Source: a virus. From it: a stretch of DNA of 21,994 nucleotides. Both the position numbers and the translations under genes were made by a program. The DNA is taken from IMG/VR virus record IMGVR_UViG_3300042514_000491, positions 1-21,994 of that record; one strand, given 5' to 3'. Under the pieces are notes generated by a model. That model did no database searches, was not told the DNA's origin, and worked only from the letters and a program-made list of their open reading frames with translations. This document shows, one piece after another, positions 15,951 through 21,740 of this stretch; position 1 is the stretch's first letter; the number at the start of each line of letters is the position of its first letter.

Positions 15951-16003
15951 TTCGTTATGATATTTTTTAAATGCAATTCCCTTGCTTTGTCCTTTGGTGT
16001 CAT
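15947..16003 (-). pseudogene. Truncated fourth copy of the MTPKEKAEEL small-protein family (18 aa)
   Basis: From an ATG at 16003 the frame reads MTPKDKARELHLKNIITK and stops. Its first ten residues match the start of the three upstream paralogues, and its ATG and stop codon both overlap neighbouring codons as ATGA, keeping the coupling of the series. It lacks the rest of the family's sequence, including the AVDEI-like and WKEVKKEI-like blocks. It is best explained as a decayed copy kept as a translational bridge, although a functional mini-peptide cannot be excluded. Confidence 0.65.
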
Positions 16004-16227
16004 ATACTTTCTATTTCGTGTTCAACCTCTTCCCACCAATAATATTCATCTTCGCTGCCTTCTACCTCAATGTTCCATTTTTCTTTCATAACCTCCCGTG
16101 CGGTAAACAAGGCGCTTTGCTTTGCAAGGATTGAAACAAGGATCTCCTGTCCAAGTTCGCCTCCGATGCTTTGAATAAGGTTGTGGTAATGGGTGAATAA
16201 TTCCTCTGCTTTTTCTTTTGGCGTCAT
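16000..16227 (-). CDS. MTPKEKAEEL-family small protein, copy 3 (75 aa)
   Basis: A small helical protein beginning MTPKEKAEELFTHYHNL and ending EVEHEIESI with a Trp pair (YYWWEEVEHEI) where the other copies have YWKEVKKEI or FWKEVKKEI. The ATG at 16227 overlaps the preceding stop codon (ATGA). A longer frame using a TTG at 16260 exists, but that part overlaps the previous gene's C-terminus and seems accidental. Small proteins of this type, with an MTPKEKAEEL start, a central A-VDEI helix and a WKEVKKEI end, are familiar from Bacteroidetes phages; their function is unknown. This copy is the most divergent and more acidic. Confidence 0.68.
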   Translation of the reverse strand: MTPKEKAEELFTHYHNLIQSIGGELGQEILVSILAKQSALFTAREVMKEKWNIEVEGSEDEYYWWEEVEHEIESI

Positions 16228-16475
16228 AGGTTTTGTATTTCTTTTTTTACTTCTTTCCAATAATTAATGGAAGGGGATGTGTCATGTGTAGCCGTTAAAA
16301 GATAATGGATTTTTATTAACTCATCCACGGCAACCAAGGCGCATTTTTTAGCATTATTTTTTTTCATGTTATCGCCTAAAAATGAGGTTATTTCATTCCT
16401 GAACTTATCAATTAACTCCTCTGCTTTTTCTTTTGGTGTCATAGGTTTTGTATTTCTTTTTTTACTTCTTTCCAA
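16203..16475 (-). repeat. 58-bp near-identical direct repeat at 16203-16260 and 16418-16475
   Basis: The two 58-base segments differ at a single base (16222 versus 16437) and lie 215 bases apart. Each spans the 3' end of one small gene and the 5' end of the next. A 26-base piece at 16639-16664 and a 13-base piece at 15991-16003 repeat the start-codon part. This is the DNA trace of the tandem duplication that made the small-protein array. Confidence 0.85.
16224..16442 (-). CDS. MTPKEKAEEL-family small protein, copy 2 (72 aa)
   Basis: A 72-residue paralogue: MTPKEKAEELIDKFRNEIT, a central CALVAVDELIKI helix and a YWKEVKKEIQNL end. It shares the last 12 residues almost exactly with copy 1. The start chosen is the ATG at 16442 that overlaps the preceding stop; the TTG-started version (adding an ERSKKRNTKP extension) is rejected because those codons are another reading of the upstream gene's 3' end. 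Function unknown. Confidence 0.72.
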   Translation of the reverse strand: MTPKEKAEELIDKFRNEITSFLGDNMKKNNAKKCALVAVDELIKIHYLLTATHDTSPSINYWKEVKKEIQNL

Positions 16476-16663
16476 AAATTAGTGTGTTCAATGCTATTAT
16501 GTTTCCAAATAGCACATTTTAAAATTTCATCAACCGCAGTCAACGCGTGTCCTTTTGCCTTGGATGAATCAATATATTCCACCCAGCCTTTTGTTTCTGT
16601 TAAAATTTTTCTGCGTTCACTAAATTTATTTACTAATTCCTCTGCTTTTTCTTTTGGTGTCAT
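16439..16663 (-). CDS. MTPKEKAEEL-family small protein, copy 1 (74 aa)
   Basis: A 74-residue paralogue, first of the array after the large terminase: MTPKEKAEELVNKFSERRK, then HALTAVDEILKCAI, ending FWKEVKKEIQNL. It starts seven bases after the terminase stop codon and ends in an ATGA overlap with copy 2. The four-copy run suggests recent duplication with divergence, unusual in compact phage genomes. Function unknown. Confidence 0.72.
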   Translation of the reverse strand: MTPKEKAEELVNKFSERRKILTETKGWVEYIDSSKAKGHALTAVDEILKCAIWKHNSIEHTNFWKEVKKEIQNL

Positions 16664-17899: not shown

Positions 17900-18191
17900 C
17901 CTTTGTAAATATAATCGTTGGCACGGTCACCTTTTCCCCCTGCGTCGTGATATCAATGTTTTGCTTTGCCTTGCCATAAGCACGGTCAAGGAGCAACTGA
18001 GCCGCCTTGATGTCACCCTTTGCCGCCTGTTCCCTTAGCTTCATGATAATTGCCTCGGCTGCGGTAATACCGTCTTTTTCCTGACCCATGACATTTGCCA
18101 TGATAAGGTCAAGGGCGGGAAGTTTTTTAGGGCGACCTGTTCCAACCGTGTTTCCTGATTTCAATTTGCCTCCGTGTTTTCCTTCCCTCAT
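17883..18191 (-). CDS. terS: Terminase small subunit (102 aa)
   Basis: A 102-residue protein directly upstream of and overlapping the large subunit. It is basic at the start (MREGKHGGKLKSGNTVGTG, RPKKLPALD) and then helical, with ITAAEAIIMKLREQAAKGD, IKAAQLLLDRAYGKAKQ, the pattern of the DUF5681-like packaging proteins in which an RPKK motif precedes a two-helix region. It should bind the phage packaging site and stimulate the large subunit. The C-terminal beta part (VTVPTIIFTKDGD) could contact the partner. The ATG overlaps the stop of the preceding glycosyltransferase gene (ATGA). Confidence 0.75.
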   Translation of the reverse strand: MREGKHGGKLKSGNTVGTGRPKKLPALDLIMANVMGQEKDGITAAEAIIMKLREQAAKGDIKAAQLLLDRAYGKAKQNIDITTQGEKVTVPTIIFTKDGDKS

Positions 18192-18979
18192 GATTCGAGA
18201 TTTAAACGAGAATTGATTCCATTATTTTTAAAAACTTTCCAATCAACAAAATGATGAATACGGTTAAAACGTATTACAGTTTTTGCATATTGCGGCCACT
18301 GTGCCTCTAACATTTTTGCTTTTAAAAGTTTCTTTTTTGGGTCATTGCCTTTGTATAATTCATCTTGATTCCCTCCTTTCATTTTTTTGGACGTACTTAC
18401 TTTATTAATTGTATAATAAACACAACTTCCAGTACTACCTCCATTATGTAATACTTGTAAACACAAATCTACATCCTCATTATATTTAAGTCTCCACCGA
18501 TAAGGCAAACTATTTTTTATTAACAATGCTGAATAAATATGACAATTATTTTTAAAAGGTTTTTTAGGTATTTTTCTAACAAAATTATATTCCTCAAATC
18601 CTCCCAAATCAATATTATTTTTTAATGTGTAATTTTCAATATATGACAAAGATGTTTTTATGTCTTTTATTTGACATCTTTTTCCATTAATCCATTTATA
18701 AAAAGATGTTATGTTATCGTCAAATAACCAATGATGCGTATATCCTAATTTTATCGAATGCTCCCAACAAAAATTTCTTGCAGGAAAACTTCCAAGTCCT
18801 AAATTTGCAAAAGGTAATTTTAACACCCTTTCTTTTCCCAATTTATTTACATAACTATCATATTCTTGTGGCTCAACTGCTATTAAATAATCTAAGTTAT
18901 CTGCTTCAAATAAATTTGCAGTCATTGTAACGTCAAATCTTCCTTTGCTAATTATGTAAACAGGGAATTTATTTTGCAT
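18188..18979 (-). CDS. TAGT-type (TET-associated) glycosyltransferase, probable DNA-modifying GT-A enzyme (263 aa)
   Basis: The sequence matches the pattern I recall for the TET-associated glycosyltransferases of phages, GT-A enzymes proposed to add sugars to modified bases in phage DNA. Landmarks: PVYIISKGRFD (6-16), AVEPQEYDSY (34-43), GSFPARNFCWEHS (63-75), the metal/sugar-binding DDN in HWLFDDNI (83-90), RWRLKYNEDVDLCLQVL (161-177), and KMKGGNQDELYKG (199-211). The C-terminal KTVIRFNRIHHFVDW is also typical. Its codons are clearly more AT-rich than those of the terminase next door, so it may be acquired. The ParB-like gene precedes it and the small terminase follows with an overlap. No TET/JBP or deoxynucleotide-modifying enzyme is in this window. 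Confidence 0.88.
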   Translation of the reverse strand: MQNKFPVYIISKGRFDVTMTANLFEADNLDYLIAVEPQEYDSYVNKLGKERVLKLPFANLGLGSFPARNFCWEHSIKLGYTHHWLFDDNITSFYKWINGKRCQIKDIKTSLSYIENYTLKNNIDLGGFEEYNFVRKIPKKPFKNNCHIYSALLIKNSLPYRWRLKYNEDVDLCLQVLHNGGSTGSCVYYTINKVSTSKKMKGGNQDELYKGNDPKKKLLKAKMLEAQWPQYAKTVIRFNRIHHFVDWKVFKNNGINSRLNLES

Positions 18980-21393: not shown

Positions 21394-21401
21394 TATCTTT
21401 G
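21394..21401 (+). promoter_or_regulatory. Bacteroidetes-type -7 box for the plus-strand tRNA-like cluster
   Basis: TATCTTTG is an exact TAnnTTTG match, three to four bases before the 5' end of the first tRNA-like element (21405), the expected spacing for the start of a stable RNA. I see no clear TTTG at -33. With the box on the other strand it forms a divergent control region at 21319-21404. Confidence 0.45.
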
Positions 21402-21404
21402 TGG

Positions 21405-21473
21405 CGCAAGTTAGTTTAGTGTTAAAATGTTTTGCGACGGCAAAAAGACGAAGATTAGATTCCTTCACTTGCA
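21405..21473 (+). tRNA. tRNA-like element 1 with 6-nt anticodon loop
   Basis: A 69-base cloverleaf can be drawn. Acceptor CGCAAGT/ACTTGCA (6 of 7 pairs), U8-A9, D stem GTTT/AAAT with A14 and A21, anticodon stem TTTTG/CAAAA, variable region AGAC, T stem GAAGA/CCTTC (4 of 5) with loop TTAGATT, close to TTCRANY. The anticodon loop is CGACGG, six bases, with no U33. An alternative 7-base reading gives an ACG anticodon but loses the stem. No CCA is encoded. It may be a degenerate tRNA or a tRNA mimic. Confidence 0.42.
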
Positions 21474-21477
21474 AATT

Positions 21478-21549
21478 AGCAAGGTGGCGGATGGGTAGCG
21501 CAAAGCGGCGACCGCGGCTGACATTGTGGGTTCAAATCCCACCCTTGTA
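21478..21549 (+). tRNA. tRNA-like element 2 with aberrant anticodon arm
   Basis: Acceptor AGCAAGG/CCTTGTA (one mismatch, one G-U), D arm GCG/CGC with GGATGGGTAG loop, and a perfect T arm GTGGG-TTCAAAT-CCCAC. The anticodon arm is AGCGG-CGACCG-CGGCT with a G-G mismatch and a 6-base loop. A 7-base reading would give a GAC anticodon with only 3 of 5 stem pairs and no U33. It begins four bases after element 1 ends. The same DNA read on the other strand gives a spurious GFEPT-type frame, a known sign of tRNA genes. Confidence 0.5.
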
Positions 21550-21617
21550 CTTACCACCCGAAGGTTGAGCAATGCTGGCACCGTGCGTTGATAAAGGGAT
21601 GGAACGGTGTAAATTTT
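21550..21617 (+). other. Spacer between tRNA-like elements 2 and 3, with a hairpin
   Basis: No gene is seen here. CACCGT (21579-21584) pairs with ACGGTG (21604-21609) around a 19-base loop, and a G-U pair extends it. It could be an RNA-processing signal or the remnant of another tRNA-like element. Confidence 0.4.
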
Positions 21618-21740
21618 AGCAAGATGGCGGAATGGTAGACGCACAAGTCGGATGGGTGGAGTATCGTAGCCCAAGGTTATACTTCCTTAACAAAAAAAAG
21701 TAGGGAGATACTCGTACGGGTTCGATTCCTGTTCTTGCTG
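21618..21740 (+). tRNA. tRNA-like element 3 (Leu-like arms) with enlarged, restructured anticodon/variable region
   Basis: Acceptor AGCAAGA/TCTTGCT pairs perfectly. The D arm, GGCGGAATGGTAGACGC, is the classic form of tRNA-Leu, and the T arm is ACGGG-TTCGATT-CCTGT. Between them, 72 bases (21644-21715) stand where a Leu tRNA would have about 30-35. I find no normal anticodon stem-loop. Possible helices are TGGGT/GCCCA (21653-21657 with 21669-21673), GAGTATC/GATACTC (21659-21665 with 21707-21713) and CTTCCT/AGGGAG. No CCA is encoded. It seems to be a tRNA scaffold with an inserted structured RNA, or a pseudo-tRNA. Confidence 0.5.

Follow-up and report, generated by a model that had tools for sequence, protein, structure and literature searches.

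Phage RNAs on a tRNA-Leu-like frame carry exchangeable domains in place of the anticodon arm

The window, by which we mean the whole stretch of DNA analysed, is a phage fragment of 21,994 bases in which the genes for terminase, a Clp-type protease, a minor tail protein and SSB all lie on the minus strand. Directly past SSB, on the plus strand at 21405-21740, are three elements (E1-E3) that resemble tRNAs, and the question they raise is whether they decode at all. The original prediction held that they are tRNA-like and lack a decoding anticodon arm. All three are present where it placed them, and its observation is confirmed in that none has an in-place 7-nt loop with U33. The array extends outside the window, with a fourth tRNA-like element, E4, at L010:1928-2029. 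Its features within the window are as follows.

21394..21401, plus strand: TATCTTTG, a match to the -7 promoter box TAnnTTTG that ends 3 nt before E1, recognized by conservation in relatives
21405..21474, plus strand: E1, first tRNA-like RNA of the array (Rfam tRNA model, 41.9 bits), with homologues in L107 and L172-L176
21435..21440, plus strand: CGACGG loop of E1, where a tRNA normally has its 7-nt anticodon loop; L107, L175 and L176 have other middles here
21450..21466, plus strand: T arm of E1, GAAGA-TTAGATT-CCTTC, read from the sequence and identical in L107 and L172-L176
21478..21549, plus strand: E2, tRNA-like RNA with acceptor AGCAAGG and a 24-nt middle at 21502-21525 (model R1, 30 bits, E = 2e-4)
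21550..21617, plus strand: E2-E3 spacer, which contains a CACCGT...ACGGTG hairpin and is conserved at 61/66 aligned positions in L174
21618..21740, plus strand: E3, tRNA-like RNA with acceptor AGCAAGA/TCTTGCT, tRNA-Leu-type D arm and T arm ACGGG/CCTGT (model R1)
21643..21715, plus strand: replacement domain of E3, 73 nt long, standing where a tRNA has its anticodon arm and variable loop (from the sequence and a predicted fold)

An ARAGORN scan of the window returned no tRNA and no tmRNA, and because it calls nothing here, no 7-nt anticodon loop emerges from that scan through an alternative alignment. The original prediction had named ordinary loops under another alignment, or arms not conserved in relatives, as outcomes that would speak against it; neither occurred, as ARAGORN finds no ordinary loop and the arms are kept in relatives. 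In an Rfam search of the window, E1 was the sole match, its 41.9 bits to the tRNA model exceeding the cut-off of 29 bits, at which E2 and E3 were missed. Membership of the tmRNA class found no backing from ARAGORN or Rfam tmRNA matches, and no mRNA-like region or tag peptide was found. Nor does the window phage or any of eight sibling records, reaching 59 kb, contain an ordinary tRNA gene: their tRNA-model matches are throughout E1 or members of the tRNA-like family described below. The record of L132 holds a 74-nt element of 55.9 bits whose loop is abnormal according to ARAGORN. All records are metagenomic fragments without isolates. Elsewhere in the window, a tandem trio of small paralogous ORFs, which all start almost alike (MTPKEKAEEL), occupies 16000-16663 on the minus strand, and a TET-associated glycosyltransferase of family PF20691 at 18188-18979 (minus strand) suggests hypermodified phage DNA.

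The acceptor of E1, CGCAAGT/ACTTGCA, contains a C1 x A72 mismatch. The earlier drawing of its middle as a 6-nt CGACGG loop on a 5-bp stem, lacking U33, holds, a 6-bp stem closed by a GACG tetraloop being a possible alternative. In the T loop (21455-21461) A56 replaces C56 and is matched in the D loop (21418-21424) by U19 replacing G19, such that the near-universal G19-C56 tertiary pair becomes U19-A56. This change, together with G53 to A53, is found in every E1 homologue retrieved (L107, L172-L176), an identity whose weight is limited by a search pattern that fixed part of both the D and T loops. The homologues have a near-identical frame and three further middles. In L107, which is ~74% identical to the window across the adjacent 1.8 kb, the acceptor, D arm and T arm are identical to those of the window E1 while the middle is wholly different; L175 and L176 each contribute another distinct middle.

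E2 and E3 have most of their first 24 bases in common, a likeness already pointed out in the original prediction. The 6-nt CGACCG loop proposed there for E2 is one possible drawing, but the pairing improves when the hairpin is drawn as GCGG-CGA-CCGC, whose loop has 3 nt. By comparison with a copy in L174 that is 92% identical and has an intact 7-bp acceptor (AACAAGG/CCTTGTT), the acceptor end of the window E2 is damaged. E3 has seven perfect acceptor pairs, G73, and good D and T arms. Its oversized middle, put at about 72 bases, measures 73 nt and has no anticodon loop; the predicted fold includes a possible GAGTATC/GATACTC helix (21659-21665 / 21707-21713). E3 scores 63.4 bits (E = 1.5e-12) against R1, a covariance model of the frame, a value that is not independent given that E3 is among the 38 sequences used to build the model. 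The minimum free energy of the E2-E3 spacer was not below that of shuffles (z 0.05).

When a 22-base piece of E3 was used as query, eleven IMG/VR contigs matched, some representing the same phage and others unrelated phages, whose elements have the D arm, the T arm and a strict acceptor AGTCAGG/CCTGACT in common and middles that are little alike. The pattern AGTCAGGTGGCGN{55,85}TTCGANTCC occurs in at least 120 IMG/VR contigs. These phage matches are not due to chance, because the same pattern in 257 Gb of bacterial genomes gave 11 stretches, 6 of them without any tRNA fold; the bacterial set resolves into elements in five MAG contigs and six chance matches. A host assignment from the MAG contigs was rejected, as these are short and probably misbinned phage. 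A frame-based finder yielded 289 distinct elements at 177 loci, with acceptor AGTCAGG in 236 and A73 in 260 of the 289, counts that are skewed to AGTCAGG by the design of the search. The common GCAAG acceptor noted originally describes this array but not the family, in which AGTCAGG dominates and GCAAG is a local variant. R1 had hits in every one of the 32 records examined, as many as 26 of them in a single 41-kb fragment; a few of the low-scoring hits (tRNA-Leu, for example) are in fact ordinary tRNAs. In larger phages the tRNA-like elements occur together with as many as 25 ordinary tRNAs, in nearly full sets, and ARAGORN labels some family members Ser, Pro, Ile or 'tRNA-???'. Apart from tRNA, Rfam gave no credible match to the family; it was found in none of 50,697 annotated phage records, and searches of the open-access literature returned no description of it or of the second scaffold discussed below. 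These elements thus appear to form a large, previously undescribed family of virus-encoded RNAs. A cyclic-phosphate processing receiver domain linked to RNA repair (PF20274) is encoded in 8/30 element-bearing records, for example at L122:565-972; a link to RNA repair on this basis was set aside, the count having no base-rate control.

The kept frame comprises an acceptor (AGTCAGG or GCAAGG), a tRNA-Leu-type D arm, a T arm and A73, and its acceptor, D and T arms have canonical tRNA geometry as judged by RF00005 and R1 searches and by alignment. Parts of the frame outside the search pattern are also conserved, namely the 3' acceptor strand CCTGACT, GGTAGACGC and the T stem. Acceptor pairing is retained in other variants, as in AACAGAG/CTCTGTT of an L296 element that was retrieved by its domain and T-arm start, not by its acceptor. 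An encoded C74 followed by an A-rich 3' context, and T-1, are common to the family and the ordinary tRNAs of these phages. The hypervariable domain begins at position 26-27 and reaches the T stem. The stretch between the D and T stems, in contrast, spans 26 to ~145 nt in the family, compared with mostly 22-24 or 31-38 nt in ordinary tRNAs of the same contigs. An in-place anticodon arm (5-bp stem, 7-nt loop, U33 and R37, at position 26-28) was present in 0/121 families as opposed to 315/393 ordinary tRNAs on the same contigs. This family-wide pattern bears out the main reading of the original prediction, that what processing enzymes recognize in a tRNA has been retained and its decoding part substituted, and we are highly confident that the scaffold is non-decoding. 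Given that a fast-changing folded piece has taken the place of the decoding part, these are not ordinary translation tools.

By BLAST the replacement domains group into 182 families, of which 132 have a single member. In one 15-member domain family, double compensatory changes affect 9/12 pairs, a number reached by 0/500 shuffles. The first helix of this domain starts exactly at the anticodon-stem site. The commonest ending class of domain helices lies 2 nt before the T stem, which is the site of the class II variable arm. Overall, the middles are slightly more stable than shuffles; since the mean z is only -0.63, some of them may be little structured. AGGTG occurs in 30 of the 182 families (about 14 expected) and GGTGG in 27 (about 12 expected); beyond this modest enrichment, with z about 5 where shuffles reach at most 4.1, no motif common to the domains was found. 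One element, in L003 (minus strand, 60-152), holds a second T-arm-like hairpin, CGGGGTTCGAATCCCTC, in its middle.

Comparison with L174 captures the exchange of whole elements. The two phages are 93% identical over 300 nt upstream, 97% in E1, 92% in E2 and 98% over 254 nt downstream; a different family element stands at the L174 site of E3, and at the E4 site outside the window L174 also holds a different element. Close phages therefore swap whole elements at fixed sites, which is cassette exchange.

Immediately 5' of E1, TATCTTTG is found in the window, L107, L172, L173, L175 and L176, and with one change, as TAACTTTG, in L174. It matches TAnnTTTG, which we take to be the Bacteroidota-type -7 box and which lies within 30 nt upstream of 16/164 family members as opposed to 3/164 random places.

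We favour, by a modest degree, the interpretation that E1-E3 belong to a phage RNA family built on a tRNA-Leu-like scaffold with exchangeable domains, giving processed small RNAs whose targets are most likely host factors or defences. A host-type promoter would transcribe the array, and host RNase P, tRNase Z and the CCA-adding enzyme would recognize the frame and free stable small RNAs. The released RNAs, unable to decode, would each present their own folded domain to a target, the likeliest targets being host factors and above all defences that sense or act on tRNAs. Arms-race selection and recombination within the common frame might then produce cassette swapping. The swapping observed fits an arms race, and both the tRNA frame and the fast exchange would follow if the elements were decoys or inhibitors of tRNA-targeting defences. 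They are probably counter-defence or host-takeover RNAs; a counter-defence role, in which they would act on the bacterial host as RNA weapons or as decoys, is put forward as a plausible hypothesis. Because the anticodon is not a recognition element for the leucyl-tRNA synthetase of E. coli, charging of the elements is conceivable, yet their acceptor is consistently unlike Leu acceptors.

The strongest rival, which we consider rather unlikely, is that the elements are stable trans-acting riboregulators on a tRNA frame, whose domains bind phage or host RNA or protein and control expression in a manner unrelated to defence. Such regulators would agree with the many different elements per phage and with domains that are structured, specific to their family and, in the only family tested, marked by compensatory changes. 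However, the longest runs complementary to the phages' own contigs (the recovered parts of their genomes) equalled those of shuffled controls, and whole-cassette exchange among near-identical phages would be unusual for core regulators. Less probable still is that the frame is processing punctuation, an RNase P and tRNase Z cutting site between neighbouring RNAs, with the middle as free filler. The elements do lie mostly between co-directional genes or RNAs, and 19/57 RNAs of the second frame end within 30 nt of an element, but filler would neither show compensatory changes nor reach 145 nt, and these arrays already contain ordinary phage tRNAs that would act as cutting sites. Interrupted decoding tRNAs, intron-containing and spliced to ordinary anticodon arms, would account for a tRNA-Leu-like body with an insert that starts near the anticodon arm. 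We find this very improbable: the arm sequence itself is lost (a normal anticodon arm anywhere in the middle in 6/121 families, against a shuffled mean of 2.4 and maximum of 7), no intron signature was recognized, and the larger phages already carry nearly full ordinary tRNA sets. Simple decay of tRNA genes, also raised originally and in keeping with the failure of ARAGORN and of Rfam at its cut-off to detect E2 and E3 and with the damaged acceptor end of the window E2, is refuted by frame positions that stay identical across phages at 70-77% identity while the middle changes, by compensatory changes and by a wide distribution with hundreds of members.

The preferred reading, RNAs with exchangeable domains aimed at host factors, has several precedents against which the family can be set. 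It is established that host defences cut tRNAs and that some phage tRNAs escape this attack (PMC10264068 and PMC11555353), the former covering phage counter-defence tRNAs with anticodon-loop changes and the latter phage tRNAs that evade retrons. Septu is reported to cleave tRNA-Tyr in its variable loop (PMC13096335), and Cas12a3 cleaves tRNA tails (PMC12851939). Ordinary and counter-defence phage tRNAs resemble the family in their tRNA frame, their phage arrays and a plausible tie to tRNA-targeting immunity, but they keep the anticodon loop where the family has a hypervariable domain of 26-145 nt. In a bacterial tRNA-Leu (Leu-CAA, L162) the D arm, TGGCGGAATTGGTAGACGC, is the same as the consensus of the family, the T arm is nearly so, and A73 is present; its acceptor is GCC...GGC, whereas the family has AGTCAGG or GCAAGG with A1-U72 and neither an anticodon arm nor a normal variable arm. 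The tRNA-like domain of tmRNA is likewise a tRNA frame without a decoding anticodon, but the D arm of the family is intact. In the synthetic tRNA scaffold used for recombinant RNA expression, a foreign RNA takes the place of the anticodon arm and is stabilized by the frame; that scaffold is engineered, while the phage family is natural, diversified and exchanged among phages. The family would be a large class of phage RNA, missed because tRNA finders discard or mislabel its members, and would mean that nature, too, mounts hypervariable RNA on a tRNA frame. Non-translational roles of phage tRNA clusters thereby become testable, hundreds of candidate RNA inhibitors are on offer, and there is a warning that tRNA counts of phage genomes include non-decoding RNAs.

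A second RNA frame often lies directly upstream of the tRNA-like elements and has the form GTGTTGT-TCC-CTTGAGAAA-GGA, a hypervariable stretch, then ACAACAC-A-GAGG-nn-TTCTCA-CCTC; written as GTGTTGTTCCCTTGAGAAAGGAA...ACAACACAGAGG..TTCTCA..CCTC, it combines a hypervariable insert with complementary loops.

L107:4028-4557 (minus strand), L060, L063, L122:6941, L160:11611 and about 50 others: second-frame copies

A scan found this frame in at least 120 contigs, from which 57 distinct copies were extracted; Rfam gave no match to it, and it is described in none of the 50,697 annotated phage records. Among 11 variants trimmed to the frame, double changes occur in 6/21 pairs, one of them in the predicted kissing of two loops; as the variants were hand-picked for variation, this is structural support with a biased count. 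It is possible, as a joint reading that we advance with caution, that uncultivated phages, probably of Bacteroidota, possess a modular arsenal of RNAs built on at least two scaffolds (tRNA-Leu-like and kissing-loop), with arrayed, hypervariable and swappable domains under arms-race selection, which might represent the RNA counterpart of swappable anti-defence protein genes.

A third recurrent hairpin, GACAGCTCGGAAAGACGAGCAACA, and its variants, in which stem changes are paired, lies just 5' of or near elements in L003/L004, L121, L054 and L175. In L025, L105, L212 and L260, CTATTAGTGAACTTCGGTACCCATACCGCTGACGATGGGC... is conserved after the second frame and is possibly another structured RNA.
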